Below, piece by piece: positions 16,123-34,853 of a stretch of DNA of 64,000 nt (position 1 is the stretch's first letter; the number at the start of each line of letters is the position of its first letter). The position numbers and the translations under genes were made by a program. Source of the DNA: Solanum dulcamara (Eukaryota > Streptophyta > Magnoliopsida > Solanales > Solanaceae); contig NC_077242.1 of assembly GCF_947179165.1 (NCBI RefSeq), positions 28,581,097 to 28,645,096 on the forward strand. Direction: 5' to 3'. The notes beneath the pieces were generated by a model. The model searched no databases and had not been told where the DNA came from. It worked only from the letters and a program-made list of their open reading frames with translations.

Positions 16123-16841
16123 TGTCATATCCCATATTTTTTATACGTTAGATTATTCGTAAGCTGAGGTGGGGTCCACATGTCGAGATTTTTTAGGACA
16201 TATGACAAGTTATATGGATAATATATATGAAGTTAAAAATAACTCAAGAAGGAACCTTGAGCCAAATCAAGGTGGAAGCCATCTAAAAAAATATTTTTTT
16301 AAGTTACGTTTTCGGGTGATCTGACTTCAGGAAGCCATAACCCCTTCAGAATTTAGGAATTTGGGAAAACTTTCAAAATAAAAGTTGTAGATAATTTAAA
16401 TAGATTTTTAAAAATGGGTCGTGGAACTGGATGTGACATTGGTATAAGGAGATATAAACATTTTAAGACATAAAGGTAGACCTGAACAGTAGATTCGGTC
16501 CAACCCAATTTTAAGTCGGATCAGGCCTAATACCCACGCCATTTAAGGAAAATTTTCATCTTTCTCCTTTATTTTTCAGATTAAAATATCCATATATTTC
16601 CATACATATATATAGAGAGAGAGGATCTTAGAGAGAAATACCAATTTTGACCAAAATATGAGCCCCGAATTCTGAAGCTCATGAAGAGAAAAGTGTTGTA
16701 CGTCGCGTTGCCTTCAATTTGAGCTAAAAATCAGCCAAGAAGGAAGTGTTAATATGGTTTCTTCATAATTAAGGTAATATTAAAGTCTTTTTTTCATTTT
16801 TAACAAGTTTAATTAGAGTTTTAACAGATTTTTGTTTTTTT
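16123..16841 (+). mobile_element. Solo LTR A1, left part
   Basis: The LTR starts TGTCATATCCC. It continues for about 0.7 kb without coding potential, including 'tacatatatatagagagaga' near 16604, and ends in a T-run (16829-16841) that is the poly(A) of the minus-strand LINE L2 read on this strand. The remainder lies at ~32811-34853. Combined length is about 2.76 kb. No internal Gypsy domain, PBS or PPT is present between the two parts, only LINE sequence, so this is a solo LTR. Confidence 0.75.
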
Positions 16842-17329
16842 AGGGAACAGACCCTATACGAGGCTCCCACCTCTCATGCACAGTTAGGTGTTGAGCAGCA
16901 CCCCCAAGCCTTAAAATAGATAACAAAAGTAAAAGTACAAGGAGGGGGACATAAAACCTTACCTCCGATCCTATGTTGGTTGATAAGTCGGCTAACCTAC
17001 TAAGGTCGGCTAACTCATCCCCGATACAAAAAGGGCTAACTATAATTAGAAAGCAGTAAACCTATGAGAGGACTCCTCCCAGTGCAAATCGACTAAAAAG
17101 CATAAATGAGGGAGACTCTCCCCTTCCATGAGAAAACAAGAAAGTAACCTACACTAGTCCTATTCAAATATGCTACGAATCAGACATAGCTACATTGAAG
17201 AAGAACAAGTATACGAAACTTCTATCTCTCATGGGATGGGAAAATTCTTTTTATCTTTGCCCTTTTTAGTCTTGTCGTACCAAGTAAATCCAAAGGAACT
17301 ATGTAACCCATCAAGAACCTGATAATCAG
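16842..17329 (-). mobile_element. LINE L2 3' tail (UTR)
   Basis: This is the reverse complement of the L1 tail at 30844-31334, nearly colinear over about 490 bp (e.g. 'gaggctcccacctctc', 'ggttagccgact' blocks, 'cactagtcctattcaa'). It ends in a poly(A) seen as T-rich 16829-16841. Conservation of the tail between copies fits its expected role as the region recognised by the LINE reverse transcriptase. It contains the palindrome AGGGAGACTCTCCC at 17109-17125. Confidence 0.85.
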
Positions 17330-19552
17330 CTAAGAAGGGTGAAAGGAGGAGAAGTATATGGAATTGGAGCATTCAGCAGCCTTGGTATTTTTGATGAAAG
17401 AGGTGCTCCAAGAAGCTTGGAAGCAAGGGGGCTGCTGCAGGTGTGAGTCCCCTGCATTCATGGTTGTTGCCTCCTTTTGTTTGAAGCTTTGTGACCCTGC
17501 ACAAGTAATCAACCAAGCAAGGATCTCCAATAATATTGTTACTAGTAGTGACTGCAGCATGTTGCATCTCAGCCATATAGCTGTTGGTGCTGTGATGTAG
17601 CTTCTACACATAGAGACATACAACAGAAAACAAAAATAGAATTGAAGATTCATTTTTGATGTCTGCTGGATGGATTTCCATATGTTCGGAGTTGTCTTGC
17701 TGATCTGGAATGGTGTTTCTGTAGGCTCTGGTATGTGTGGATGTTGTCTCCCTTTGTCTGAGACTTTGTGTACCTTATGTGCCTGTACATAACAATTAGA
17801 AGAGCAGGGAGCTTCAAGAGTTTTGGGGTGCAATGGATCTGTTGCAGGTGTTGCAGTCAAGGAATTAGTATGGGTGGAGAGTTGATGTGTTGGTGAGGTC
17901 CTATCTTGGAAGGCTGCTGTCTCTATGTTGATGCCTTTTATTTGCCAAGGTGACCCATTAGCTGTTGTACCTACTCAAAAACCATCAAAGGAAAACAACC
18001 AGCCAACAAGACAGAAAAACCAGGATGGGCCTATAGCAGTCTTGTTGTTAATGCATGTTGATGTATCACTCCAGTAACCTACAATAATACAACAAACAAA
18101 CAAAAGCAAGAAAGAACTTGCACAAGCTAGCAAAATAGAAAGGACCTCTAAGAGTGTTTTGGAGCCTGTTTGCTTTTTCAAGGTCGCTCGCCTAACGTCT
18201 ACAATTATCCGATTGAGCTGAAACTCTTTGAGACTTGCAAAAACATGCTTTTCTTTTGTCCTGCAAGATTTTGAGGCATTTTGCACAAGTTGGAGTTTCC
18301 AAATAGCAAATTGCTCCCTCTGTAGGCTTAAGACAGCTAACTTTTTCAAGGTCGCTCGCCTAACGTCTCCAATTATCCGTTTGAGATGAGACTTCTTGGG
18401 CCTTGCCCCTATAGTATTTTCTGCAATCCTGCAAGCTTTGGAGGCCTTGGTGCAGGTCCACATGATCCCAATCACCCTGCACATCATACCATGCTGTGGC
18501 TTGGTCATAGGCTGCTGCAGGTCCTTGGGTAGCTCCATGTTACTTCCATAGTAGAGGGGGTTAAGATGCTTGTTGTTGCTAGCTACTCCCAAGAGGAGAC
18601 CCTTCCTTGTGATCAGGATCATCTCTTAAGAGTACCTGCACAAGATAGACAAACTAAAGGAGAAATCCCATTGCTGATTCCTGTGCTGCATCTCTACAGC
18701 ATTCTTATGTTGTTGTTGCTGCATCTCTGTAATGTAGTTGATGCTGCTGTAGCATCTACATGTGATGTTGTTGAGCTGTTACAGGTATAAAGGTAGTTGT
18801 TGGTGCAGGCAATCCAATCTTAGATGCTGCAATTCCAACACAAGGCTCAAAGTTGCAGGATACTTCCAAGAGTGCTGTACAGCAGAAACATTGGAAGTAC
18901 AATTGCTGTTGGTGTGTCTCCTCTTGTTGTTACTGTTGTTAAAGCATTCCAGGTTCTGTATTGTGGTGTATCTGCACAAACCAACAAATAAAAATAAGAA
19001 AGAACTTGCACAAGCTAACAAAAGGGAAAGGACCTCCAAGAGTGCTTTGAAGCCGGCTAACTTTTTCAAGGTCGCTCGACTAACGTCTCCAATTGTCCGT
19101 TTGAGTTCAAACTTCTTGGGCTCTGCAAATACAGTATTTTCTGTAATCCTGCAACTTTTGGAGGCCTTTTCCACAAGCTGGAAGTTCTAATTTGTGAAAT
19201 GCTCCATCTTGCGACTTAAGTCGGCTAACTTTTTCAAGGTCACTCGACTAACGTCTCCAATTATCCTTTTGAGCTGAAACTTCTTGGGTTCTGCAAGAGT
19301 TGTATTTGCTATAATCCTGCACAATCTGGAGTCATTTTGGTGTAGCATGGTGTATTTGTTGAAGGTTGCTGGTTGCTTCTGGTCTCTGTTGCTGTTGCTG
19401 AGTGGCTGTTGTTGTTGATCAGTTGCAGTCACTGTTGTTGCTGTATTGTGGCATATGCAAGTGATAACTACTCTAGCTCTTACTTCTAGCAGTATGTTCT
19501 TAGTTCTACTGAAGCAGTAAACAAGGGAGACTCTCCCCTTACAATGGGAAAT
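17330..19552 (-). pseudogene. LINE L2 ORF3 (unknown protein), interrupted
   Basis: Unrecognised coding region. Read on the minus strand in one frame it runs from 19552 to a stop at 17330-17332 (741 codons) with only four internal stops, at 19187, 18779, 18626 and 17975, and no frameshift. Its first 13 codons lie at 31394-31356 on the other side of L1, beginning at an ATG 33 nt after the L2 ORF2 stop. It matches L1 ORF3 along its length: KGRVSLVYC near the start, the basic motif KRIIGDVRRATLKK four times (about 19270, 19070, 18380, 18200), and hydrophobic segments such as LLEVLSILLACASSFLLLF. It is older and decayed relative to L1, yet the frame is retained. Confidence 0.7.
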
Positions 19553-19569
19553 AACTAGATGGAAGAAGA
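19553..19569 (+). repeat. Left TSD of LINE L1
   Basis: AACTAGATGGAAGAAGA (17 bp) is repeated without mismatch at 31356-31372 directly after the L1 poly(A). A long, exact duplication is the signature of target-primed reverse transcription and suggests a recent insertion. Confidence 0.9.
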
Positions 19570-19662
19570 GATTAATTAGTGTATAATTTTGGAAAGAAAA
19601 AAATCCTCTCAAACCCTAGTAATCATTATCTCAAAGAAGGGCATTTTAGTCACAAAAACGAA

Positions 19663-22600
19663 ATGGGGTGGGACCCACCTCCGGACCTCGAAAAATTTCG
19701 TTCGAAAGATGGAATCGTAGATTCCGTCGATACGAACACAACGAAAGTTATCTCACTCTCAGATTCCATCTATAGCTCCTCAAATTTGCAAAAGACTGAA
19801 GTGATCACTGTTCATTGTTCGAGTGAGGAGCTGCTGCAAGCTGAAAAAATCATATCCTTGAGAAATCGGGGATTGCTAAAGATTATAAACAATATTGGAG
19901 ATGATTCTTCATCCCATATGCCAAGCACAGTACAAAGTTCACAAAAAAATTTAGTCCCAATTGAGAAAAATGCAGAGGCGCATCAGCTCAGCATCGCCGC
20001 CAATGCGCCACCACTGCGCCTTCAATTTCCAGCCACCTCCGGCGATATTCTAGCCCTCGCACCATCTGGACTTTGTTCGCAAGGACAAGGCGCCCCGATA
20101 GGAACAAAAACCTCTGGCGAAATCAACTCCGGCGAACAAATTGTAGTCGACGCAGGAGCTACGGCAAGCCAAAACGCACAAGATGAATGCCAAAATGTTC
20201 CTCAAGCTGTTTTCAATCTCCTCAGTCATGAGAGCCATCTCGAATCACTGCCACACTCTTCGAATGTATCCTTGAGCTCTGACAACAATGGAGTCGCCGG
20301 AGCTCCGGCCAGCCAATTCAGCCAAGACCAATACCAAAAGGTGAGTAACAGTGTGGAGAAGATTTCTAACTATAACACATGTCTCAAATCTATACAAACA
20401 AGTTCAAATTCAAAAAGTCGTCAAGACGACTTTGGTGGTGCCGGAGCTCCGGCGAACCAATTGGCAAGAGACCAATACCAAAAGACTCATCAAGGAGTCA
20501 TGAAGCTTCCAAGCTATATAGAGTGTCTCGAATCACCATCAACAAGCTCAAATTCAAAAAGTCGTCAAGACTTGCATCTCCCTGAAGAACACTGTAACAG
20601 TGTTGTTCGAGCTGAAGCTGTGGCTGGTGTATTGGATCATGTTCAAAATGACCAACAAGGAAATAGAATGCTAATATTGGAAGGCATTGAAGAAAATGGT
20701 CATGCCCCAAAAGAAATTTCGAAGGGGAACTTCACTGATAAGCAATGGAACAGTGCTCTTGCTGTGGCTCATCCAGGTAAGTCTTCTAACTATTTCAACC
20801 AATATCTAGTCAAAAGTGATGACCATATTAACAATGTTGTTCAAATGCATAGTGACACTGTCGAACCTCATGAACTTAGCTTGCTTGATAATAATGTACA
20901 AAAAGGAAATTTAGCTAATGTTGTTATTGTTAAGCCTACTAATTTGCATCTAGCTCTGACCAAGAATAATGAGGAAATTCAGAATGCTACTCACAATGGT
21001 GATACTGATCTTGTTGTTAAGCACAAGGAGCAGGGGAACATAATACTTGGTAATGTTGAAAAAAACAAACAACCTGACCAGTTGAACAGGGGGCTCAATG
21101 TGAAAACTCAACCTGTCCATAGACCTTATGTTCCTAATAGCAATCCTATGAAAGTGTCTAATAATTTTGATGCTATTAAATCTACTAACAAACCTGCTGC
21201 TCTGAATACTGGAAGCAACCTAGGTTCCAGAAACTCAAACCAACTTAGAGCTCCAAGTTTTAATATTCCAACTCCTAATAATCATGTGGTGCTTCCCAAT
21301 ACTAATTTACCTGCAAAACAAACCCAGCACCCCAATACTAATACTCCAACCCCTCCTAATCCTGTCATCCACCAAACTCTGGCTACTAAGTTGAGAGCCC
21401 AAGAAGCTATGAAAACAGACACTATTGATATTACACCTCCCAAAATTACCACAAAGCAAGGCTATCCAGCTGTAGTATTTACAGAAGAAGACTTCCTGGT
21501 GAAATTGGCTAGTGATTGTAAGTATACTCTAATAGGAAAATTCACAAATACTATGCCTAAGATGGAAACCATTAGAAAGGAATTCATCTTGCAAACAGAA
21601 CTCAGAGGAGGAGTGAAACTTACCCATTTTAACTCTAGGCATCTGTACATAGACTTGGACAATGAGTATGATCACTCTACTGTTTGGTCCAAAGGAAGAA
21701 TGTACATAAATGGCCAACTTATGAGACTCCAACTTTGGACCCCCACCTTCAAGCCTGAAGAAGAAACATCTCTAGTTCCTATATGGGCTATATTACCTGA
21801 ATTACCTTGGCACTGTTATCGTCTTGCAGTGGTAACTCCATTACTATCCCCAATTGGAAAGGTGTTGTTCTTGGATTTGGCAACCTACAAGAAAACAAGG
21901 GGTAGTGTTGCAAAAGTCAAAGTACAAATTGACCTTACAAAACAAAGACCACAACATGTATGGATGGGGTATGGTGAGGATGAAAATGGAGCAGGAAGGT
22001 GGCAGTCTATCCAATATGAGGGGGTGCCAGATTACTGTCAACACTGCAAACATCAAGGTCACACCATTCATGTTTGTACTGTGAAAAGAAGGGATGAAGA
22101 TAATAAGAAAAAACAAGTTCAAGAAGAAGAAGCAAGAAACAAAGATAAATCCAGCAATGAAAAGAACAAGGAACAACAGAACAAGGAGCTAAAACACCAA
22201 GAAGACAAACAAAATAAGGAACAACAAAACACTAGCAAAGCTGGAACTGAAAAAAGAGACCAAGAACATGCAGGTTGGCAAATTCAAAGGAGGAAAGGCA
22301 AAAAAGATGGACAACATAACCAACAACAACCACAACAGCATAAAACACAAGTATCCATGACAAAAGGGGAAAGTTCAGTACCATCCCAGCATATTATCAG
22401 CAGCAGCAAAGAAGGAAAATCTCAACAGCAGGCAGGTATGCTTAATAACTCTAACTTTAATACTTGTAATATCCAAACTTGTAATGTAGACTCTGGAGTC
22501 CAGAGCCTACTCCCCATTCCCCATACAGTATTGGATCCCAGCCCCCATAATCCCATACAGCAGGTATTACATGTTAATGAAGAGAGCAGACCTGCAGACA

Positions 22601-23517
22601 AACAAAAAGAGCAAAATATTACTGCCAGGTGTGCACCAAATACTGGTTTGAATAATGTGGAAAGCAACAAAGCCAATGGAAAAATCCCAGGTATTGACTT
22701 AATGCTCCCACAACCCCATGGCTCCCCCAATTACTTTAATATCTTAAATAGTATTAATGTTGTGGCTGAAGAAGTCTGTGGAGGTCAGGTTGGAGGAATA
22801 CAGGAGCAAATCACTAATCTGCAGGAAGGGGAAACCAAGGGGAGGGAAAATCTATTGGTTGACCATAGGAAAGACCCTAGAGCCCCTGCCACCACTATTC
22901 CAGCAGAGATAAGGTCCAACATGCAATTGCAACAAGATGATGGTCAACAGCTTTCAGAGGACAGTGATAAGGGAGGTGTTGAATTTCCAAAAAATAGTGA
23001 ACAAAATACAGGTGCAGTGATTCAGCTACTGAACAATAAATATACTCTTTCTTTGAGTAAAAAGAAGAGAGAGGCACTGAAGAAAAAGATAGGAAAAAAA
23101 AGTAAAAAATCTCTGTCTGAAAAGACACAACACAGAGCAGGGATTTATGCTTCACCTCTTCAAATTCAATCCAGCTCTACTGAATTGTATGTGCTTAATA
23201 AGAGAGCCATATCAGATGACTTGGAGGATGAATATAGACCTATTCAATCTGAAGATGAAGAGGACCTAGATCAAAAGGAACAAACTCATGATGAGGATGA
23301 GGAAACTAGTGCCTCTCCCATTAGAGCACTGGATGATATCACAGATTCTACAACTCAGGATGAAGTGTTGCAAGTCACTGAGAAGCAGGGTTTATCACCC
23401 AGGGGTCAGCAAGCAAAGAAGAAGAAGAAAAAACAGAAACAAGACATCTCCACCAGTTCAGATAATGCTACTTGTAAGAGTGGCATCAACACAAGGTCCA
23501 AATCCCTGAAACTTTGA
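19663..23517 (+). CDS. ORF1: LINE L1 ORF1: gag-like RNA-binding protein
   Basis: This 1284-aa protein is expected to bind the element's RNA in the ribonucleoprotein. The ATG at 19663 is the first in frame; the frame is open from 19579 but without an earlier ATG. The N-terminal half is low-complexity and contains three tandem 48-residue repeats (residues about 162-305). A DUF4283-like domain follows at about 600-760 (VFTEEDFLVKLASDCKYTLI, LWTPTFKPEEE), then a zinc knuckle CQHCKHQGHTIHVC (CX2CX4HX4C) at about 22037-22078, then a long Lys/Gln/Glu-rich stretch and a basic C-terminus (KKKKKKQKQ). It is about twice the usual length for a plant LINE ORF1. Its TGA overlaps the ORF2 ATG. Confidence 0.9.
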   Translation: MGWDPPPDLEKFRSKDGIVDSVDTNTTKVISLSDSIYSSSNLQKTEVITVHCSSEELLQAEKIISLRNRGLLKIINNIGDDSSSHMPSTVQSSQKNLVPIEKNAEAHQLSIAANAPPLRLQFPATSGDILALAPSGLCSQGQGAPIGTKTSGEINSGEQIVVDAGATASQNAQDECQNVPQAVFNLLSHESHLESLPHSSNVSLSSDNNGVAGAPASQFSQDQYQKVSNSVEKISNYNTCLKSIQTSSNSKSRQDDFGGAGAPANQLARDQYQKTHQGVMKLPSYIECLESPSTSSNSKSRQDLHLPEEHCNSVVRAEAVAGVLDHVQNDQQGNRMLILEGIEENGHAPKEISKGNFTDKQWNSALAVAHPGKSSNYFNQYLVKSDDHINNVVQMHSDTVEPHELSLLDNNVQKGNLANVVIVKPTNLHLALTKNNEEIQNATHNGDTDLVVKHKEQGNIILGNVEKNKQPDQLNRGLNVKTQPVHRPYVPNSNPMKVSNNFDAIKSTNKPAALNTGSNLGSRNSNQLRAPSFNIPTPNNHVVLPNTNLPAKQTQHPNTNTPTPPNPVIHQTLATKLRAQEAMKTDTIDITPPKITTKQGYPAVVFTEEDFLVKLASDCKYTLIGKFTNTMPKMETIRKEFILQTELRGGVKLTHFNSRHLYIDLDNEYDHSTVWSKGRMYINGQLMRLQLWTPTFKPEEETSLVPIWAILPELPWHCYRLAVVTPLLSPIGKVLFLDLATYKKTRGSVAKVKVQIDLTKQRPQHVWMGYGEDENGAGRWQSIQYEGVPDYCQHCKHQGHTIHVCTVKRRDEDNKKKQVQEEEARNKDKSSNEKNKEQQNKELKHQEDKQNKEQQNTSKAGTEKRDQEHAGWQIQRRKGKKDGQHNQQQPQQHKTQVSMTKGESSVPSQHIISSSKEGKSQQQAGMLNNSNFNTCNIQTCNVDSGVQSLLPIPHTVLDPSPHNPIQQVLHVNEESRPADKQKEQNITARCAPNTGLNNVESNKANGKIPGIDLMLPQPHGSPNYFNILNSINVVAEEVCGGQVGGIQEQITNLQEGETKGRENLLVDHRKDPRAPATTIPAEIRSNMQLQQDDGQQLSEDSDKGGVEFPKNSEQNTGAVIQLLNNKYTLSLSKKKREALKKKIGKKSKKSLSEKTQHRAGIYASPLQIQSSSTELYVLNKRAISDDLEDEYRPIQSEDEEDLDQKEQTHDEDEETSASPIRALDDITDSTTQDEVLQVTEKQGLSPRGQQAKKKKKKQKQDISTSSDNATCKSGINTRSKSLKL
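20146..20577 (+). repeat. Three tandem 144-bp repeats in ORF1
   Basis: Units at 20146-20289, 20290-20433 and 20434-20577 encode 48 residues each. Units 2 and 3 are clearly alike (GAGAPAxQ, DQYQK, CLxS, SSNSKSRQD). Unit 1 is more diverged (GATASQNAQDECQ, HLESLPHSSN). The function is unknown. Confidence 0.8.
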
Positions 23518-26500
23518 TGATGAATACAATATGCTGGAATGCAAGGAGTATTGATACTCAAGGTGCCTTGGATAGACTCCAAAAACTCAAGGATTATCAC
23601 AATTTAACTATGCTGGCAATCCTGGAACCATTTGCTAATCAATCACATCTTAACCACTACAGAATTCAGCTGAGAATGGACAGTGCCATTCATAATCCCA
23701 ATAACAAGATTTGGTTGTTTTGGACTAAGGATGTGGACTGCACTATTGTAGACCAAGATGAACAACAGTGTACTTGTGAAATCAAACATGTGGCTAATCC
23801 TAATTCTCATATTATTACATTTGTTTATGCCAAGTGTAAGGATTACCTGAGAAGAACTCTTTGGGATAAAATGCTGCAGTATGCTGACACAGACAAGCCA
23901 TGGTGCATTATGGGAGACTTTAATGTGATCACTGATGTTGATGAAAAACTAGGAGGACAACCACACAACATGAACAAAAGCTTAGAGTTCATAAGTGTAA
24001 TTGAGGCATGTGGTCTCACTGATCTGGGATTCCATGGGCAGAAATTTACATGGTGCAACAACAGGGACATGGAAGTTAGAATTTGGAAGAGACTGGACAG
24101 GGCCATGGTGAATGATAGGTGGTTAGAGATGATGCCCATGACTACTGTGGCTCATCTTGCTTCAACAGGTTCAGATCACTCCCCCCTATTACTTGAATGT
24201 AAGGAGACTCACAGTAATCCTATCAAATACTTCAAGTTCCTCAACTGTTGGGTGGATAATGAGACTTTCCAGTACACTGTTAGAGTCTGTTGGGAAAGAC
24301 CAGTAGAGGGTAATCCAATGAGAATATTCCACTTGAAACTTAAGAGGGTGTCTAACACCCTTAGTAGCTGGTCAAGGCAACAGTATGGGGACATATATGA
24401 AGCTGTCAAAGAGTTTGAAGAGAAGGTAAAGCAAGCTGAAGTTGATCTCATCCAAGACAAGTCTGAGGATAACAAGATCAAGCTGAATCTTGTGAATGCT
24501 CAGTACATTAAATACTTAAAGACTGAACAATCCATCCTTAAACAAAAAACTAAGCTTCAGTGGTTTAAGGAGGGAGATGCCAATTCCAAGTACTTTCATG
24601 CTATTATTAGAGGAAGGAGAAGAAGATTATTCATCCATCAGATTACTGATGAACAGGATAATACTATTCAAGGTGATCAGAATATAGCTACTGCTGCATG
24701 TGACTACTTTGAGAAGATATTTACTGTTAAGGATGATGCTATCAATGAAGATATCCTCAGATGTATCCCCAAATCCATCACAGATAATCAAAACCAAGCT
24801 CTTAATGCTATGCCAACTAAAGAGGAGCTGAAAGAAGCTGTTTTTTCCCTCAGTGATGTATCTGCTGCAGGTCCAGATGGTTTTAATGGCAAGTTCTTCC
24901 AAACTTGCTGGGATATCATCAGTGAAGACTTATTCAATTTGGTGAAATACTTTTTTTGTGGGCATTCTATTCCCAAGTTCATCTCACATGCTTGTTTGGT
25001 TCTACTCCCAAAAGTAGATCATCCTAATAAGTTATCAGATTTCAGGCCTATATCACTAAGTAACTTCACCAATAAAGTTATTTCAAAGATCCTATGTCTC
25101 AGACTTGCTCCTATTCTTCCTCAACTGATCTCTGAAAATCAGTCAGGTTTTGTTAAGGGAAGAAGTATAGCTGAAAACATAATGTTGGCACAGGAAATCA
25201 CTCATAGCATTAAAAAACCAAAGATGGGAGATAATGTTGTGATCAAATTAGACATGGCCAAAGCCTATGACAGGGTGTCCTGGTCATTTATATGTCTAGT
25301 CATGAGAAGGTTTGGATTTGGAGAAGGATTTATTGACATGGTTTGGAGACTTATGGCTAATAACTGGTATTCAGTTATTGTGAATGGAGGTAGGCATGGT
25401 TTCTTCCACTCTACAAGAGGCCTCAAACAGGGAGATCCATTATCCCCAGCCCTATTTATTTTAGGTGCTGAGGTACTATCAAGAATGCTCAATAATCTTC
25501 ATCAACACCATTTGTACAAAGGTTTCCACATGGAGAAGAAAGGTCCATTGATTAATCATTTGAGCTTTGCTGATGATATAATCATTTTCACTTCAACATG
25601 TAGTAACTCTCTCAAGCTGATCATGAAGACACTGGAAGTGTATGAACAGACTTCAGGCCAGCTTATTAACACACAAAAGAGTCAGTGCATGATCCCTCTG
25701 AATACTGATCCTGAGATCACTGAAAGGGTCACTTCTACCACTGGTTTCAAAACAACTCATGGCCCTATTACCTACTTGGGTTGCCCCTTATATATTGGAG
25801 GTCAAAGGATCATATACTTTACTAGTATGGTGTCCAAAGTAACATCCAGAATTAGAGGATGGCATACCAAAATTCTCAGTTATGGGGGGAGAGCTGCTCT
25901 TGTGAAGTATGTGTTGCAGTCCCTCCCAATTCATCTCTTATCTGCTGTGATTCCAACTGCCACTACACTCAAACAAATAAAGTCCCTAATAGCAAAATTT
26001 TTTTGGGGATGGGACAAAGAAAAAAGAAAATACCATTGGGCATCATGGGAGACCCTCAGCTACCCAACAGATGAAGGAGGTGTTGGCATGAAAAATCTGA
26101 AAGATGTCTGCCTAGCAATGCAATATAAACAATGGTGGAATTTTAGGTCTAAGAAGACTCTATGGGGGAGCTTTCTGAGGGCCAAGTATTGCCAAAGGGC
26201 AAATCCAGTAATCAAGAAATGGGACACTGGTCAATCAATTATGTGGAAACACATGATGACAAACAAAGCTGAGATTGAGCCTCATATACAGTGGCACCTT
26301 AACTCAGGCTCTTGCAGCTTTTGGTGGGATGATTGGTTAGGAATTGGCCCCCTAGCTTATCACAAAGACTGTCTACCTAGACTTAACAATACCACTGTCT
26401 CCAAGTTCCTGAAGAATGGAGAATGGGATGAAGAGAAGGTGAGGCAACATGCACCACAGCATCTGATACAGAAGATTCTAAATGTTTCCTTCAAGTACCA

Positions 26501-27677
26501 ACCTGACCTCCCAGATACAGCCTACTGGAAGCTGAATTCAGATGGAAACTTTACATGTGCTTCAGCTTGGAACCAAATCAGGCCTAAAAGGAACAAAACC
26601 ATGACAGACAATAATATATGGCACAAGAATATACCCTTCAAAATATCCTTTCTTATCTGGAGAGCTCTCAGAAGCAAGTTGCCCACCAATGAAAATATTG
26701 AGCACTTTGGTCATGCAGCTGCTCAGTGTTCTTGTTGCTACAGGCCAGGATGGGATACTATAGATCACATTTTTATCTCTGGACACATGGCTAGTCACAT
26801 ATGGAAGTATTTTTCTGACTGTTGGGGTATACAACACAGCAGCAACCCAATGAGGAGCAATATGATGAAATGGTGGCTGGCTAAACCAAATAATGAAGTC
26901 CATAAACTATTATTGCAAGCTACTCCTATATTTATTTGTTGGAACTTATGGAAGAACAGGTGTGCTAGTAAATATGGTGGCAAAAAGTCTAGCAGTACTA
27001 GAGTGAAATTCTCAGTCATCAAAGAACTCTACATGCTGATCTTCACAGATTTCCCTTACATTAGTTGGCCAAATGACTGGAAGGAGCTAATAGCTATGGT
27101 GGAAAGATGCAGCCATGAAATGAAAATCATCCAAGTCAGTTGGCACAAACCAGCATACCATGTGGTTAAACTGAATACTGATGGAAGTGCCTTGGATAAT
27201 CCTGGAAGAATTGGAGCTGGGGGTATCCTAAGAGATCATAAAGGAAACATCCTTTATGCATTTGCTGCACCACTTGGAATTGGTTCTAACAACCAAGCTG
27301 AGGTACAAGCTGCAGTCATAGGCATTACTTGGTGTATTCAACATGGCTACAGCAGGGTTCTACTGGAGGTTGATTCTGAATTACTTGTGAAATGGTTAAA
27401 ACAAGAGATCACATCTCCCTGGAACATCAGGAAATACATCACAAACCTGCAGGAGATGATCATAATGCTGGATCTCTTTCAATGTAAGCACATCTATAGG
27501 GAGGCTAATTTTGTTGCTGATACACTCTCCAAGCATAGCCACAGTGTAGATAGCATGGCTCAATTCTACAGTGTTCAACAGCTTCCTAAGGAAACAAGAG
27601 GATATTACATCCTAGACAAGATGGGGATGCCAAATTTTAGGAGGACAAAACTGAAGAGGATCAAACAACCTCCTTGA
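23517..27677 (+). CDS. ORF2: LINE L1 ORF2: endonuclease-RT-RNase H
   Basis: This 1386-aa polyprotein would nick target DNA and reverse-transcribe the element RNA at the nick. An APE-type endonuclease spans about residues 1-230 (ICWNARS, AILEPF, MGDFNVI, TGSDHSPLLL with the SDH catalytic triad end). RT spans about 430-800 (DFRPISLSNF, SENQSGFVKGRS, KLDMAKAYDRVSW, GDPLSPALF, LSFADDIIIFT with the FADD active site). A zinc-binding RT-associated region lies at about 1000-1090 (IWHKNIPFKISFLIWRALRS, CSCC). RNase H is at about 1215-1340 with all four acidic residues (NTDGS, QAEVQAA, EVDSE, VADTLS). No stop or shift. The ATG overlaps the ORF1 TGA (TGATG); a second ATG follows immediately, so reinitiation is plausible. 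Confidence 0.95.
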   Translation: MMNTICWNARSIDTQGALDRLQKLKDYHNLTMLAILEPFANQSHLNHYRIQLRMDSAIHNPNNKIWLFWTKDVDCTIVDQDEQQCTCEIKHVANPNSHIITFVYAKCKDYLRRTLWDKMLQYADTDKPWCIMGDFNVITDVDEKLGGQPHNMNKSLEFISVIEACGLTDLGFHGQKFTWCNNRDMEVRIWKRLDRAMVNDRWLEMMPMTTVAHLASTGSDHSPLLLECKETHSNPIKYFKFLNCWVDNETFQYTVRVCWERPVEGNPMRIFHLKLKRVSNTLSSWSRQQYGDIYEAVKEFEEKVKQAEVDLIQDKSEDNKIKLNLVNAQYIKYLKTEQSILKQKTKLQWFKEGDANSKYFHAIIRGRRRRLFIHQITDEQDNTIQGDQNIATAACDYFEKIFTVKDDAINEDILRCIPKSITDNQNQALNAMPTKEELKEAVFSLSDVSAAGPDGFNGKFFQTCWDIISEDLFNLVKYFFCGHSIPKFISHACLVLLPKVDHPNKLSDFRPISLSNFTNKVISKILCLRLAPILPQLISENQSGFVKGRSIAENIMLAQEITHSIKKPKMGDNVVIKLDMAKAYDRVSWSFICLVMRRFGFGEGFIDMVWRLMANNWYSVIVNGGRHGFFHSTRGLKQGDPLSPALFILGAEVLSRMLNNLHQHHLYKGFHMEKKGPLINHLSFADDIIIFTSTCSNSLKLIMKTLEVYEQTSGQLINTQKSQCMIPLNTDPEITERVTSTTGFKTTHGPITYLGCPLYIGGQRIIYFTSMVSKVTSRIRGWHTKILSYGGRAALVKYVLQSLPIHLLSAVIPTATTLKQIKSLIAKFFWGWDKEKRKYHWASWETLSYPTDEGGVGMKNLKDVCLAMQYKQWWNFRSKKTLWGSFLRAKYCQRANPVIKKWDTGQSIMWKHMMTNKAEIEPHIQWHLNSGSCSFWWDDWLGIGPLAYHKDCLPRLNNTTVSKFLKNGEWDEEKVRQHAPQHLIQKILNVSFKYQPDLPDTAYWKLNSDGNFTCASAWNQIRPKRNKTMTDNNIWHKNIPFKISFLIWRALRSKLPTNENIEHFGHAAAQCSCCYRPGWDTIDHIFISGHMASHIWKYFSDCWGIQHSSNPMRSNMMKWWLAKPNNEVHKLLLQATPIFICWNLWKNRCASKYGGKKSSSTRVKFSVIKELYMLIFTDFPYISWPNDWKELIAMVERCSHEMKIIQVSWHKPAYHVVKLNTDGSALDNPGRIGAGGILRDHKGNILYAFAAPLGIGSNNQAEVQAAVIGITWCIQHGYSRVLLEVDSELLVKWLKQEITSPWNIRKYITNLQEMIIMLDLFQCKHIYREANFVADTLSKHSHSVDSMAQFYSVQQLPKETRGYYILDKMGMPNFRRTKLKRIKQPP

Positions 27678-27711
27678 TTTGCATACCAATAATAGTAGTA
27701 CAGAACTCCCT

Positions 27712-30700
27712 ATGTATAAATTCATAGGTAGGAGTTTTGTAAAGGGGACAATCTCCCTTACTTATTGCATTCCTAGAGCAATCAACCTACCCCTAGAGGT
27801 AAGGATTAGAATAGATAGCTTCTTTTTTCTTTTCATTCTTGCTTGTGTAGGTATCAGTAGATTTGGAAAATGGGAACCAACAATTGCAAGCCAGGCAAGG
27901 AAAGCTGTAGTGATGCAGCACAGGAACCAGCAATGGGAATCAGCAATCAGGAACCAACTACAAGTAATTAGAATATTGCAGAATTGCTTGTATGTGTGTT
28001 TTTCTGTTGGTGGGTGCAGGTACCATAGGGAGCTGGTTCTGAGTACAACTAAGGGTCCTCTCTTGGGAGAAGCCTGCAACAACATGCAATTTAACCTCAT
28101 TTACTATGGAAGTCACATGGAGCTACAAAAGAGTCTCCAGCAGCCTGTACACCTATCCTTCTTGTTTGGCTTCTTGTCACTTGTCTTTACAGGTTCAAAG
28201 TATCTCAACAAAAGAGAAGCAACAACCTGGCATGCTAGGACTTCACCAAATATTCAGCCTCTCACTAATGCTAACACCTTCCCTGCAACACCTGTAACTG
28301 AGATTCAGCAGGGTAAGATGTGCAGGGTGAGTTGCAGCAGGTGGACTTGTTCAATGCCCCCCAAACTTTGCAGGATGTTAGAATATATTATTTTGACAAG
28401 CCCCAAGAAGTTTCAGCCCAAACGGATAATTGGAGGCGTTAGGCGAGCGACATGGAAACATTCAGCTGCCTTAGGCCTAAAGAGAGGGTCTTTAGTAATT
28501 TGGACCCTCCAACTTGGGAAACAAGTCTTCAAACTTTTCAGGACTAAAGGAGAGGATACATATGCTAAATCCATAAAGTTTCAACCCAAATGGACAATTG
28601 GAGACGTTAGTCGAGCGACTTGGAAAATGATAACACTCTCCAAAGCTCTTACTGAGGTCCCTTCTTTATTGCTAGTCTGTGTACATTATTTTTTGTTTGG
28701 GCTTGTTTGTTGTATTATTGCAGGTGTCTGGAGTAATATATTAGCATTCTTCAACAACAAATACATAGACAAGAGCACAAAAACAACTTCCAAACACCCT
28801 GCAACCTCTAAGCTTCAGCAGGGCAGCAGGTGCAGGGTGTGGAGTAGCATGTGGACTTGTCCAATGCCCCCCAAACTTTGCAGGAAGTTAGAATATATTA
28901 TTTTGACAAGCCCCAAGAAGTTTCAGCCCAAACGGATAAATGGAGGCGTTAGGCGAGCGACATGGAAACATTCAGCTGCCTTAAGCCTAAAGAGAGGGTC
29001 TTTAGTAATTTGGACCCTCCAACTTGGGAAACAAGTCTTCAAACTTTGCAGGACTAAAGGATAGGATATACATGCTAACTCCATAAAGTTTCAATTCAAA
29101 TGGATAATTGGAGACGTTAGTCGAGCGGCTTGGAAAATGATAACACTCTCCAAAGCTCTTACTGAGGTCCCCTCTCTATTGATAGTCTGTGTATATTATG
29201 TTTTGTTTGGGCTTGTTTGTTGTATTATTGCAGGTGTCTGGAGCAATATATTAGCATTCTTCAACAACAAATACATAGACAAGAGCACAACAACATCTTC
29301 CAAACCCCCTGCAACCTCTAAGCCTCAGCAGGGCAGTAGGTGCAGGGTAGGGAGTAACTTGTGGACTTGTCCAAAGTCTCCCAAACTTTGCAGGATGGTA
29401 GCATATATATTTTTGATAAGGCCCAAGAAATTTCAGCCAAAACGGATAATTTTAGACGTTAGGCGAGCGAGCTTGAAACAATCAGCTGTCTTAAGCTTAA
29501 AAAGGAAGAAATTTGCTAAATGGAAGCTCCAACTTGGGAATCAAGCCTTCAAACTTTGCAAGGCTAAAGTAAAGAATATATATGCAAACCTCATGAAATT
29601 TCAGCTCAAACGGATAAGTGGAGACGTTAGTCGAGCGACATGGAAAATGCTAACAGGCTCCAAAATCCTATTTGAGATCCATTCCTCTCTACTAACCTGT
29701 ATATGTCTATGCTTGTCTTTGGTTACTTGCTGTGTATTTGCAGGTTGTTGGAGACTTACACCAACATGCTTTAACATCAAAATCATAGAGGACAACATCT
29801 GCAGCAGCTCAACACCTGCAGCAGCCCAACACCTGCAACACCTGCAGCAGCTCAACACTTGTTTGCTTTGTTGCTTGTCTTTGGTTGACTTTCTTTGCTT
29901 AGAACCTATTTGGCACTGCTATGAGGGCTGCAGTAACCTTGGGCTTATATGGAGTAGCACACTTAGCTGGCCAACCACACTCTCTATTATCAACACACCC
30001 CAGCACCAACCTGCAGCAGACAAGGAACAAATCCAATCCACCTATGCCTTCTCTAATAACTCTAATAACACAACACTTGCAGCAGCTCCTTTCTTGCTGG
30101 TTCTTGTTTGTGGTGTAGATGCAGATGTCAGGATGAACTCATCAACATGTGTTTCCAACACCTACATAGAGCACAGCACAGATACAACCACCAAAACAAA
30201 TACCTTCACTAAGAGGCCTACACAAGGACTATGCAGAGCAGCAACTTCCTTCTGGATTTTGTGGTTGTTTGGTTGCTTGTATTTGGCTGTTTGTCTTGTT
30301 GGTTGTGTTTGTCTATGCAGGTACCTCAGCTTCACCCCCCTCCAGGAGAATGCATTGATCTCCATGACCAGTCATTCTCAGCTTCACCAATGCAGCTGGC
30401 AGACTGCTAAAAGGACTGCAGTATCTTGGGGCTGCTTTGGAGCAGCACCCTCAGCTTGCCAAACACATTCTCCACTACTAACACACTCCAGCAACAACTC
30501 CATCAACCTGCAGCAGACAAGAAACATATACAAGTTTGTTGGTTTTGTTATTTTGTGCAGGTGCTCCAAGAGGCCTAACCACCTCAAAACAAAGACCAAC
30601 AAGCAGCCTAGGGAACCTGCAGCCACCTGCAGATTGGCAGCCTTGGATGCATTCCATCAACAGCTGCAACAGCTCCACCAACTTGCAGCAGCCAAGGAAC

Positions 30701-30843
30701 AAATACAAGCTAATGCTACAGCAGCTTGCACACCTCTTTGGTTGAATGTATTGTTGGTCTTGTTTGGCTGTGCAGGTACAGGTCTGCAGCAACCATACAT
30801 TTGGACCACCATGCAGCTACTTCCTTCCTTTCAACCTCCATAG
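27712..30843 (+). CDS. LINE L1 ORF3: unknown, repeats and hydrophobic segments
   Basis: Function not recognised. From ATG 27712, 34 nt after the ORF2 stop, one frame runs 1043 codons to a stop at 30841-30843 with a single internal TAG (29062-29064, where the sister repeat has GAG). The other two forward frames show only short open stretches. The middle holds three 170-residue tandem repeats, each with CRV...WTC...KLCR, two basic motifs of the form KFQPKRIIGDVSRATWK, and a hydrophobic stretch (e.g. LLLVCVHYFLFGLVCCIIAG). More hydrophobic segments occur near residues 36-49, 847-870 and 1010-1023; the C-terminal third is Gln/Ala/Ser/Thr-rich. L2 keeps the same frame, start and stop positions. 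Alternative: a non-coding 3' region that lacks stops through repeat structure. Confidence 0.6.
28321..29850 (+). repeat. Three 510-bp tandem repeats in L1 ORF3
   Basis: Anchors such as 'tgcagggt' recur at 28321, 28831 and 29341, and 'attgcaggtgtctgg' at 28717 and 29227 with a diverged third at 29737, so the period is 510 bp (170 codons). Units 1 and 2 are nearly identical; unit 3 is more diverged. Each unit contains two related half-modules about 168 bp apart ('ggcgttaggcgagcgac' and 'gacgttagtcgagcgac'). Confidence 0.9.
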
Positions 30844-31334
30844 CTGGTAATCATGATGCTGATACAAAGGCACACTTCACCTGGATTTACTTGGTACGAC
30901 AAGACTAAAAGGAGCAAAGATGAAAGGAATTTCCCATCCCATGCGAGATAGAAGTTTCGTATGCTTGTTCTTCTTCAATGTAGCTATGTCTGGTACGTAG
31001 CATAGTTGAATAGGACTAGTGTAGGTTACTTTTCTTTTTTCTCATGGAAGGGGAGAGTCTCCCTCATTTATGCTTTCATAGTTGAATTGTACCGGGAGGA
31101 GTCCTCTCACAGGTTTAATGCTTTCTAGTTATAGTTAGTTTCTTTTTTGTATCGGGGATGAGTTAGCCGACCTTAATAGGTTAGCCGACTTATGAACCAC
31201 CATAGGATCGGAGGTAAGGTTTATGTCCCCCTCCTTGTATTTTTATTTTGATTATTTATGTTAAGGCTTGGGGGTGTTGCTTAACCCCTGACTGTGCACG
31301 AGAGGTGGGAGCCTCGTGTAGGGTCTGTTCCCGT
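30844..31334 (+). other. LINE L1 3' UTR/tail
   Basis: This roughly 490-nt region between the ORF3 stop and poly(A) is nearly identical in reverse complement to 16842-17329 of L2. It is T/C-rich with the palindrome GGGGAGAGTCTCCC at 31050-31063 and ends GGGTCTGTTCCCGT. It probably contains the reverse-transcriptase recognition structure (inference from LINE biology). Confidence 0.8.
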
Positions 31335-31357
31335 AAAAAAAAAAAAAAAAAAAAAAA
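31335..31357 (+). other. LINE L1 poly(A) tail
   Basis: A run of 23 A lies between the conserved tail and the right TSD; the last two A also count as the first two bases of the 17-bp TSD. Confidence 0.95.
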
Positions 31358-31372
31358 CTAGATGGAAGAAGA
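31356..31372 (+). repeat. Right TSD of LINE L1
   Basis: AACTAGATGGAAGAAGA matches 19553-19569 exactly and directly follows the poly(A). Confidence 0.9.
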
Positions 31373-32810
31373 AGAAATAAAACAGAATACTCATAAAAAG
31401 TCCATTACACATTGAGAATGAGATCAGTCAAGAGGATAGTTTGATCCTTTTCAGAGTTTTCCTTCTGAAACTTGTCATTCCTAGCTTGTCCATCTTGATG
31501 TAGCCTTTTGTTTCATATGGTAGCTGCTGGAGATTATAGAAGTGTTGTGTATCATTGAACATTTGGCTGCGTTTTGCAAAGGTATCTGCAGGATGGTTTG
31601 CTTCTCTGAAAATATGTTTGCACTGAAAGAGTTCCAAATGTTGGACCAAGGACTGTATCTTTGTAACATATCTATGAATGCTCCAAGGTGGATTGAGGAC
31701 TTATTTCAGCCACTTAGTCAATAATTCAGAGTCCACTTCCAATATCAGTCTATTATATCCATGTTGAAGGCACCAATTGAGGCCAATAATTGCTGCCTGC
31801 ACCTCTGCTTGGTTATTAGTACCCATTCCCAATGGAGTTGCAAAGGCATATATTAAGTTACCATTGTGGTCTCTTAATATTCCCCCTACTCCAATTTTCC
31901 CAGGGTTGTCCAATGCACTCCCATCAGTATTCAATTTCACAATGGGAGATGGAGGTCTGACCCACATAACTTTGGTCACTGTCATATCTTGTTGACACTG
32001 TTCTATCGTAGGAACCAGTTCCTTCCAGCTCTATAGCCACTTAATGTAGGGGTAAGCAGTGTGTATCAGCATGTATAGGTCCTTGACTATGGAGAATTTA
32101 ACTATAGTAGTACTAGATTTATTTTCTCCATATTTACTTGCACATCTATTCTTCCATATATGCCAACAAACAAAGATAGGAGTGGCTTGCAACATGAGTT
32201 TATAAACCTCATTATTGGCCTTGGCAGTCCACCACTTCATCAGGATGCTTCTCAGTAGGGAGGTCCCTTGTATTATCCCCCATGAGCTAGAGAATTGTTG
32301 CCAAATATGTTTGGCAAAGTTTCCAAAGGAAAATATGTGATCTACATTATCCAATCCTGGTCTGTAACAACAAGAACATGCTGCTGGTGCTGCTCCAAAC
32401 TGGACAAGTTTATCATTAAAGGGGAGTTTCTATCTCACAGCTCTCCATAGTAAGAAAGATACTTTGAAGGGAATGTTAGCGTGCCAAGTGCATCTATTAA
32501 TCAGGGTCTTTGCTCTTTTCTTCCTAACTATTTCCCAAGCTGATTTAGAAGTGAAGTTACCATGTGGAGTCAACTTCCAGCAAGCTTGATCAGCTGTGTT
32601 AGAATGATGGTCTACCTCAGTACTTAGTATCTGCTGCACCAGTTGAGAAGGGGCATATTTTCTGATTTTCTGCACATTCCACTCCCCATTCTCCATGTAA
32701 TCAGATACTCTACTATTATTGAGTCTAGGTAGATGGTTGTTATGATAAGCTAGGGGGCCAATACCCAGCCAATCATCCCATCAGAAGCTGTATGTACCAG
32801 ATTAGAACGG
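31373..32810 (-). pseudogene. ORF2: LINE L2 ORF2 C-terminus, 5'-truncated
   Basis: The minus strand reads as the last ~450 residues of ORF2. It starts in the region matching SFWWDDWLG of L1 (with W to stop at about 32780), then the zinc-binding region (32430-32696, CTWHANIPFKVSFLLWRAVR then stop), and RNase H (31985-31428: LNTDGSALDNPGKIG, NQAEVQAAIIG, LEVDSELLTKWLK, PADTFAK). The ORF2 stop is at 31428-31430, followed 33 nt on by ATG 31394 of the L2 ORF3. L1 has inserted at 31373. Breaks at 32430, 32031, 31701 and smaller changes show it is dead. The 5' truncation (~32810) is typical of LINE insertions; no clear L2 TSD was found. Confidence 0.85.
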
Positions 32811-34853
32811 AGAAAATAGCGTTATAAACTTATTTGTTGTTTTGTTGAGATTTATGGATTAAGGGTTTTTAGGTGGATTAAATGAATGAAATTAGCTGAG
32901 TTATGATGTATAATAATTTTTGATATTATTTTTGATGTTGTTGATGAGTTGTTGTTTCTGAATTTGGATGAATAAAGTGTATGAAGATATCGTATACAAA
33001 GCATATACCGTACTATTTTGTGACGATATTTTAGAGCTGTTTGGTATGATATTTGTGGCTATTTTGCGATGATATTTTGGAAAATGTTTTGTAGTTGTTA
33101 TAAACTATTTTTTGGGCTGAAATATCAGGGAATTGGCTGTAGTTGTTGTTATTTTTATACTATGGATACGCAAAAATAAATAGTGTATACAAGCATTGAC
33201 ATCTGAATGTATATTGGGCTGTTTTGGAAGTAACTTAAGGATGGATTTAATTCTAGTTTGATATAAAATTGTTGGTATTTTTGTTGTTGATATTTTAATT
33301 GGTGTTTGACTAAATTGGAATTTCAAGGATTATTAAGTTTGCAGGACAAATATTGCCCGATTTTTGTTAAGTTTCATTCGTACTTGGATTAGTTAGTAAA
33401 TGGTGTGGATATATAATTGTGGCCTATGTCATCTTAATTTTAGACCCACGAGCTCAAGAAGTAGACGTTGGACATTTAGATAGAGTTCAAGGTATGTAAA
33501 TCTACCTTTCTTTCTTTACGCATGAGGCATATGGAACAAATGGACGACGAATGTATAAATTGCAAAGAAGCTCCCATTCTTAGAGACACTAGGATGGCTA
33601 ATATTCTTGATTCCCAGAACTTATATCATTATGTCTTGATACATGTATATGATTCCAGCCATCCTATTTTGGCATAATTCATATTTTGGTATAATTCATA
33701 TTTTGGCATAATTCATATTTTGGTATAATTCATATTTTGGTATAATTTATAATGACATTTGAAGGGTACTTGAGATGACTACGGTCTTGATTTTCAAATA
33801 ATGATTTATTTTGATTATTCTATTGAATCTCAGAGGATAATCTAATTGTATATGATTGCTCGTGATATTCCACTCGTGCATACTGTTATTGTATTATTCA
33901 CCGAGTTTTGGCCCGGGTATGTTGTCATGTACAGTGTCACTACATTATTCACTGAGTCCCTCACTGGAGGGTCGGGTACGTGATATGATAATACGATATT
34001 ATGATGATATGATTATGACACCTAATCCCATGATGGGCCGGGTACGGTATACGTGTACACAACTTTATTCACTGAGTCCCTTACTAGAGGGCCAAGTATG
34101 GTATATGATGATATGATTATGGCACCGAGTCCCATAATGGGTCGGGTATGGTATATGTTAATGATATGCATGATTTTGTTTCGTAAGGCACAGGTACAGT
34201 GATTCCTTGATTATCATACTTGTCTCTTGGAGTCCCTACTTCAGTTATGATCTTTCTTAATATATTTCTTGCTTTATTTACTCAGTACATATTTCGTACT
34301 GACCCCCTTTCTTTAGGGGGCTGCATTTCATGCCTGCAGGTACAGATACTTGGTTTGGTAGCCCTCCATTCTAGGACTTCTGCTGAGCTGTTTGGAGTGC
34401 TCCATTGTTCCGGAGCCTAAGTTATTTTGGTATTGATATTTTGATGTAAACTTATCTATGTATATCCAAGGGTACAGCGGGGCCCTGTTCCGTTATGTTT
34501 CGCTATGATATTCTTAGAGGTCTGTACATACATACCTGTGGGTTGCATATATAAGTTTTGCTCGGGTGTTTCTATATGATTTGATATAGATATCTCCGTA
34601 TATAATAGAAGCCTTGTCGTCTTACGTAATGTATTGGTAACATAATGGTAGCCTTGTCGTCTTGTGTATTATATGATAATTTGGTTAACTGTGACTCCTC
34701 AAGAGATAGATTCATGATATGTGTCATTGTAAATCCTTAATGGCTTATTAAGCTTCCTATAGTTCTTGGTTTCAGTCTGACAATATGTAACAGGTATGTG
34801 TACAAGTGTCCATCTCGGGCACTAATCACGGCCTATGGGGTTGGGTCGTGATA
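32811..34853 (+). mobile_element. Solo LTR A1, right part
   Basis: Continuation of the LTR begun at 16123, ending GGGTCGTGATA (terminal CA mutated to TA) at 34853 and followed by TSD ATTGT (34854-34858). It holds a 5 x 17-bp array (33666-33750), a 120-bp duplication (about 33910-34160) with small hairpins such as 'gtcccatgatgggc', and the shared palindromic block 'actcagtacatatttcgta' (34279-34305). Nothing appears to code. Confidence 0.75.
33666..33750 (+). repeat. 5 x 17-bp minisatellite in LTR A1
   Basis: Five head-to-tail copies of ATTTTGG(C/T)ATAATTCAT, the last with one substitution. Confidence 0.9.

Follow-up and report, generated by a model that had tools for sequence, protein, structure and literature searches.

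A third frame downstream of ORF2 in two nested LINEs of Solanum dulcamara may be kept open without selection on its protein sequence

Celine is a long interspersed nuclear element (LINE) of poplar that, in the accessible part of its description, carries DUF4283 in the first open reading frame (ORF1) and an endonuclease and reverse transcriptase (RT) in the second, ends in poly(A), and is flanked by a target-site duplication (TSD); it contains two ORFs followed by a 189-bp 3′ untranslated region (UTR) (PMC11288735). DUF4283, RT, poly(A) and a TSD, together with a candidate endonuclease, recur in L1, a LINE located in a 64,000-nucleotide stretch of Solanum dulcamara DNA (contig NC_077242.1, positions 28,581,097 to 28,645,096 of the forward strand; hereafter the window). 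Unlike Celine, however, L1 is an 11.8-kb element with a third frame of 3.1 kb, here called ORF3, after ORF2. A homologous frame lies in L2, a second, 5′-truncated LINE that contains L1. In a literature search on LINE ORFs and Solanum LINEs, covering titles and the beginnings of abstracts with subscription literature largely outside its scope, no third ORF downstream of a plant-LINE ORF2 was found among the matches listed. Sequence comparison suggests, with a probability that we put at roughly 45%, that ORF3 is a real translated frame on which selection acts to keep it open rather than to preserve its protein sequence, in a region that would function at the nucleotide level and escape RNA surveillance.

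Extra frames beside replication genes have been described in bdelloid long terminal repeat (LTR) elements, which contain an ORF3 and captured additional ORFs in the available text of that report (PMC5408684). Those elements differ from L1 in being of the LTR type, and L1 ORF3 shows no detected amino-acid constraint and no Pfam family above the cut-off. L1 is a plant L1-type LINE, as assigned from its RT, zf-RVT, DUF4283, poly(A) and TSD without an RT tree. Its ORF2 matches PF00078 (RT, E 9.2e-35) and PF13966 (zf-RVT, E 1e-21), and a match to PF03372, an APE-type endonuclease family (E 0.002, 18.4 bits), lies under the cut-off of 24.5. The L2 ORF2 remnant shares 59% protein identity with L1 ORF2, gap-free across 454 residues. 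Measured from the ORF2 stop, the tail ends about 3.7 kb away in L1 and 2.8 kb away in L2. Both elements depart from the two-ORF plan with a short 3′ UTR, which is not taken as excluding membership in the plant L1 clade.

What is the evidence for an open third frame? An initial annotation of the window had described, after L1 ORF2, a frame of 1043 codons starting at ATG 27712 and interrupted by one TAG at 29062, and a homologous L2 frame of 754 codons continuing in register with four stops. Both were confirmed, with coordinates agreeing within a few nucleotides. Internal stops in the three forward frames number 1/63/51 in L1 ORF3 (terminal codon excluded) and 4/46/30 in L2 ORF3 read across the L1 insertion; no random stops or frameshifts, which the initial annotation had named as evidence against its reading, were found in these two copies beyond the one and the four stops. 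The reverse-strand frames of the L1 ORF3 stretch contain 44/25/75 stops, ruling out an antisense gene across it. Shuffled versions of L1 ORF3 (1000 of each kind) never contained fewer than 35 stops with dinucleotide shuffling, 34 with local 30-nt shuffling and 31 with local 12-nt shuffling, and the minima for L2 ORF3 were 23, 21 and 20 (1000 each). Stop density in L2 ORF3 (4 in 754 codons) does not exceed that in the L2 ORF2 remnant (4 in 454), and both were therefore probably equally open when L2 was inserted.

A 510-nt unit occurs three times in L1 ORF3 (u0, u1 and u2), and two related units (L2A and L2B) are found in L2. Openness must be partly inherited among these units, because they are tandem copies with a period of 510 = 3 × 170, and the frame could on this ground be ascribed to chance or to an open repeat multiplied by duplication. 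However, the frame is also open outside the repeat. Stops by frame are 0/10/13 (195 codons), 0/8/14 (351) and 0/14/8 (153) in three L1 blocks, one of which is a single repeat unit and the others lie outside the repeat, and 0/6/6 (87 codons), 2/7/8 (160) and 1/11/9 (237) in three L2 blocks, all outside the units. The deficit was observed in each of the six blocks, with P(≤observed) from 0 to 0.016 in 2000 local shuffles per block. Since the non-repeat blocks are open as well, duplication alone is not the source of the deficit. Moreover, on the five-unit tree, with about 334 substitutions, two stops were observed where neutral simulation with three root choices predicts 14.6-16.4 (P(≤2) ≤0.0003), and in a second neutral simulation, with 15.7 expected, none of 2000 runs gave as few. 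The shuffles, the six blocks and the unit tree together lead us to reject chance with duplication, which retains hardly any credibility.

Stops are thus excluded from ORF3; are its amino acids preserved? The codon tests cover the repeat units and two blocks of 133 and 39 nt, as L1 and L2 could not be aligned well enough over the remainder of ORF3; in the codon runs, stop codons were masked as gaps and L2A was a partial row. The maximum-likelihood ratio of nonsynonymous to synonymous rates (dN/dS) for the five units is 0.983 (bootstrap 0.72-1.41), with a log-likelihood of −1679.9 at a ratio of 1.0 and of −1739.9, 60 log units worse, at 0.2. The initial annotation had named a ratio near 1 as an outcome that would speak against its protein, and such a ratio was obtained in the repeat units. 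Pairwise Nei-Gojobori values in ORF3 range from 0.63 to 1.6, with 0.32 for a 12-codon block, and dN/dS for ORF2 of L1 versus L2 is 0.18. When the same base changes were placed at random, the u2-L2B pair showed 13 synonymous codon changes versus 16.2 expected, and ORF2, given the same treatment, showed 127 versus 47. Replacements in u2-L2B score −0.77 on the BLOSUM scale versus −0.88 at random; the ORF2 values are 0.19 versus −0.69. Identity by codon position is nearly flat in u2-L2B (114/112/110 of 153) and uneven in ORF2 (329/365/225 of 454), and codon usage in the ORF3 frame, on a scale trained with ORF1 and ORF2, scores close to zero. The same u2-L2B comparison contains no stops versus 5.6 expected. 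A stop deficit with P of 0.035 or less was found in seven of nine ORF3 comparisons, the weakest being L2A-L2B (1 versus 4.2); none was seen in u0-u1 (1 versus 1.6) or the 133-nt block (1 versus 1.0), both of low power.

The same DNA is also used in more than one frame. Nucleotides 2204-2325 and 2692-2822 of L1 ORF3 are 75% identical and are read in different frames, each being open in its own; the second copy has a stop in the frame of the first, and the first is open in both. A duplicated segment is therefore open in whichever frame it is used, indicating that preservation follows the reading frame and not the peptide. Two other out-of-phase pairs in L1 ORF3 (43-44 nt) are open in two or three frames and are uninformative. 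In addition, MAFFT aligns nine matched stretches of ORF3, 133-510 nt long and 6-31% diverged, without any indel; the L1 and L2 tails, 11% diverged, differ by six indels over 486 nt, and the length of none of these is divisible by three.

A serious rival is that ORF3 encodes a fast-evolving accessory protein, repeat-built, basic and hydrophobic and mostly disordered, whose bulk properties or diversity would matter; we regard this as the less probable reading, with odds of about one in three. The frame is open in both copies, as this protein would require, and nonsynonymous changes between L1 and L2 units are slightly above random (80 versus 69.8, 79 versus 72.5 and 73 versus 71.2). Three protein searches also found homologous open frames in six proteins, namely five S. 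dulcamara gene models (the weakest, P0006, at E 0.045) and one protein from an assembled contig; the first and third of these searches scored only the 7989 and 7997 candidates with the most words in common. P0001 is a LINE copy, as it opens with an ORF2 endonuclease piece, and P0004 aligns from its residue 1 at L1 27679, just past the ORF2 stop, and runs for 409 residues. Of 56 tblastn matches to L1 and L2 ORF3, 53 lie in the ORF3 frame, an agreement that arises partly by construction because the queries were translated in that frame, and gene models may themselves be selected for openness. One scan each of viral contigs and of genome contigs confirmed no further copies.

Other observations tell against such a protein. 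Its dN/dS is about 1, neither clearly above nor below, the BLOSUM scores in its frame equal those of random replacements, the same DNA serves different frames, and the last residues of L1 and L2 ORF3 differ save at a few positions. No Pfam family scored above cut-off for either of the two pieces of L1 ORF3 searched, so that a known domain was discarded, and the AlphaFold model of the homologue P0003 (six-row alignment) is of low confidence, with a predicted local distance difference test score of 49.9. Transmembrane-like segments number 9/7/7 in the forward frames of L1 ORF3 and 3/4/3 in those of L2 ORF3; they probably follow from T-rich tracts, since they are present in all three frames, and the inference of a membrane protein from them was rejected. 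The accessory, perhaps membrane-linked protein first proposed for ORF3 is thus not borne out by the structure model, the transmembrane-like segments or the Pfam search, nor by the dN/dS of 0.98 and random-like replacements in the repeat units.

The start of ORF3 recalls a mode of translation already described for LINEs. According to the part of the report available, ribosomes can reinitiate after a stop, as in the stop-restart translation of SART1 (PMC5972666). L1 resembles SART1-type LINEs in the overlap of the ORF1 stop with the ORF2 ATG, TGATG. In contrast, the restart there yields ORF2 after ORF1, whereas here ORF3 would be reached by reinitiation 15-34 nt past ORF2. The first AUG past the ORF2 stop falls in the ORF3 frame in both elements, at 27712 after a spacer of 34 nt in L1 and at 31412 after 15 nt in L2, a coincidence with a chance of about 1 in 9. 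The L2 start initially placed at ATG 31394 is in the ORF3 frame, but the earlier in-frame ATG 31412 is the first after the ORF2 stop. Alternatively, frameshift or readthrough might add ORF3 to ORF2 as a C-terminal extension: in L1 its frame overlaps the end of ORF2 by 23 nt in +1, and in L2 the ORF2 stop is followed by ORF3 in the same frame. However, because the frame of ORF3 relative to ORF2 thus differs (+1 in L1, 0 in L2), no single recoding event serves both copies, and an extension is very improbable. At the other end, the ORF3 stops lie about 490 nt (L1) and 500 nt (L2) from the LINE end, in keeping with the roughly 490 nt reported for both at the outset, and the strongly conserved tail starts about 26 nt upstream of the ORF3 stop.

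Several features of the region are seen at the nucleotide level. A 55-nt module core occurs in ten copies over L1 and L2. Its invariant columns number 12/18, 8/18 and 12/19 at codon positions 1, 2 and 3, conservation being about equal across positions within core boundaries that were set after viewing the alignment, and 13/40, 9/41 and 15/40 in the whole 121-column module alignment. That third positions of the module are as conserved as second positions also argues against the fast-evolving protein. The motif GTTAGNCGA is matched 15 times across the window, versus 0.49 expected, with 11 of the matches in ORF3 and the remaining 4 in the two tails. Identity between the L1 and L2 tails is 89% (16829-17330 in L2 and 30844-31335 in L1). 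A tail segment with GGGGAGAGTCTCCC (L1 tail 31035-31075, +) recurs at the start of L2 ORF3 (19512-19554, −), with a score of 45 versus a null maximum of 32 (100 nulls); the L1 ORF3 start scores 32 against the tail segment, inside the null (maximum 35). This suggests that an old tail lies directly after ORF2 and that the ORF3 region was inserted between two tails. Seven single-strand folds were compared with shuffled sequence: six had energies close to those of the shuffles (z −1.3 to 1.2), and that of the tail piece 31140-31230 reached z −2.2. An Rfam search of 16500-33000 gave no match with E up to 1.

Recursive-splicing ratchet points are sites preceded by a T-rich tract. In Drosophila they contain juxtaposed AG/GT, as do sites in ORF3, but they lie in long introns in the accessible account, whereas the sites here are putative and lie inside an open LINE frame (PMC8605326). 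T-rich YAG sites number 14 in L1 ORF3 (9 followed by GT) and 6 in L2 ORF3 (3 followed by GT), with none in ORF1 or ORF2, and the reverse strand of L1 ORF3 has 2; these are raw counts without a shuffle control, which limits their weight. If the YAG/GT sites were real acceptors, a subgenomic env-like message or exitron-like isoforms could carry pieces of ORF3, and openness would be needed because unspliced and spliced forms would both be translated. The contrast in site counts between ORF3 and the two ORFs before it agrees with such splicing, as do P0001 and P0002, which jump into ORF3, relative to L1, at two YAG/GT sites; the sequence before the jump is a piece of the ORF2 endonuclease or of a unit read out of frame, and the jumps would be exon junctions. 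These gene models are predictions, however, and in P0003 and P0004 the reading continues across module and T-rich segments. The donor-like sequence GTAAG shows no enrichment, at 0.64 per kb in ORF3 versus 0.76 in ORF1 and 0.72 in ORF2, and some splices would break the frame, since the YAG/GT sites occupy two codon phases. Expression from spliced RNA is an unlikely explanation of the open frame.

How could openness itself be selected? EVADE is a plant retroelement subject to translation-dependent silencing, with the fate of its RNA set by splicing and translation; it belongs to Ty1/Copia, and the available portion of the report describes no comparable third frame (PMC8892269). For ORF3, selection on openness may take the form of a "cover ORF", a more tentative proposal drawn from the same comparisons: kilobases of RNA-level sequence would be kept translatable by selection in cis on each RNA against stops and frameshifts, amino acids would drift, and translation itself would be the function. 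The stretch of 2.8-3.7 kb separating the ORF2 stop from poly(A) would act mainly at the nucleotide level, through the YAG/GT acceptor-like sites and the modules with the tail motif. Ribosomes finishing ORF2 would resume at the next AUG, clear the splice-like and tail-like stretch, and reach about 0.5 kb from the 3′ end. With a stop inside ORF3, the 3′ UTR would become very long and intron-like, and host surveillance, through nonsense-mediated decay (NMD) or RDR6-type silencing, would eliminate the RNA before it was copied. In plants, the features linked to NMD include a long 3′ UTR and the presence of introns within it, according to the part of the literature covered (PMC12259633). In this scheme the openness, the AUG position, the nucleotide features and the lack of detectable amino-acid constraint in the units are observations, and translation, reinitiation, selection by surveillance and any role of the RNA elements are inferences.

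A number of observations weigh against selection on openness alone. Only two DNA copies are available, and the units are paralogous repeats inside them. In control frame 2, stops are mildly depleted in four pairs (P 0.02-0.04; for example, 12 versus 17.0, P 0.03, and 11 versus 16.4, P 0.02), and replacements are more conservative than random in some pairs (u0-L2B, P 0.002). A column-shuffle test, which keeps column make-up, gives weaker results: 2 stops versus 4.0 for the five units (P 0.077) and 1 versus 4.5 for the ten modules (P 0.012), the latter with an unexplained excess in frame 1 (51 versus 41.5). The proposed comparison of indels with the tail stood in part. The nine stretches are indel-free and the tail is not, but this result is less strict than it appears because the stretches were picked as equal-length matches; in blastn only three of the same nine are gap-free, several others having 4-12 gaps that mostly cancel, and local matches running further show frame-changing offsets at their edges. 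The ORF3 frame is preserved overall, not base by base. Near the N terminus of ORF1, a 132-nt direct repeat (20296-20427 and 20440-20571) must be translated, because DUF4283 follows, and yet its changes by codon position are 13/11/12 and its synonymous changes 4 versus 4.1 expected in this low-complexity sequence (44 codons). It thus looks unconstrained too, in a small sample, and disordered protein can therefore resemble ORF3, which favors the fast-evolving protein. RNAalifold gave −1.67 kcal/mol for the module with almost no covariation, and no conserved structure was found.

Two further points concern rates and surveillance. The synonymous rate (dS) of u2-L2B is 0.40 versus 1.54 for ORF2. 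To explain this and the low tail divergence, it is possible either that 3′ ends were exchanged between LINE families after the ORF2 split or that a nucleotide function restrains synonymous sites in ORF3. Under such restraint, the dN of ORF3, measured against a neutral rate, would match the low value of ORF2 (0.31 versus 0.28), implying constraint at both levels; it is argued that the constraint would lie on nucleotides, because change is equal at all codon positions. Finally, the ORF2 stop is also far from the 3′ end, and NMD sensitivity would not be set by ORF3 alone, since ORF1 stops 7.8 kb from that end.

Table 1. Coordinates of the parts of the two nested LINEs in the window.
Feature	Position	Strand	Remarks
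L1, 11.8-kb plant L1-type LINE	19570..31357	+	sits in 3′ part of L2
L1 TSD, 15 bp	19555-19569 and 31358-31372		identical 15 bp at both flanks
L1 ORF1	19663..23517	+	open from 19579, first ATG 19663; DUF4283 (PF14111, E 1.8e-28)
L1 ORF2	23517..27677	+	RT, zf-RVT, RNase H; endonuclease match below cut-off
L1 ORF3	27712..30843	+	1043 codons, one internal TAG 29062-29064, terminal TAG 30841-30843
Repeat unit u0 (510 nt) in L1 ORF3	28298..28807	+	
Repeat unit u1 (510 nt) in L1 ORF3	28808..29317	+	6.5% different from u0; holds internal TAG
Repeat unit u2 in L1 ORF3	29318..29786	+	
Nine T-rich YAG/GT acceptor-like sites	27848..30777	+	YAG at 27848, 28017, 28190, 28721, 29231, 29741, 30318, 30558, 30773
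First of six 55-nt module cores in L1	28404..28458	+	others start 28572, 28914, 29082, 29424, 29592; each with GTTAGNCGA
L1 3′ tail, untranslated	30844..31334	+	two GTTAGCCGA motifs
L1 poly(A)	31335-31357		23-nt A run
L2 ORF2 end (L2 5′-truncated)	31428..32801	−	4 internal stops in 454 compared codons
L2 ORF3 start	31358..31412	−	ATG 31412 or 31394, to L1 insertion point; includes one TSD copy
L2 ORF3 remainder	17330..19554	−	holds units A and B and stays in register; whole ORF3 has 4 internal stops
L2 3′ tail	16829..17329	−	

Elsewhere in the window, Ty3/gypsy-like gag-pol frames, named by sequence resemblance from the ORF list, lie at 45570-48637 (+) and 55227-59840 (mainly −). A 67-bp tandem repeat occurs in two copies at 53797-53928, two at 60598-60729 and five at 63362-63696, and a 17-bp repeat, TATTTTGGTATAATTCA, in about five copies at 33665-33751.

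What would ORF3 mean for plant LINEs? Open frames are usually read as evidence of a protein; here stops are excluded while the amino acids show no detectable protection. If instead ORF3 encodes a very fast-evolving protein, it would still be a third LINE protein outside the two-ORF plan. If selection on openness holds in more copies, ORF3 would offer a natural setting for testing selection on translatability by itself. It would also have consequences for gene annotation, such S. dulcamara loci being already annotated as proteins, and would bear on how plant retrotransposons live with mRNA surveillance.

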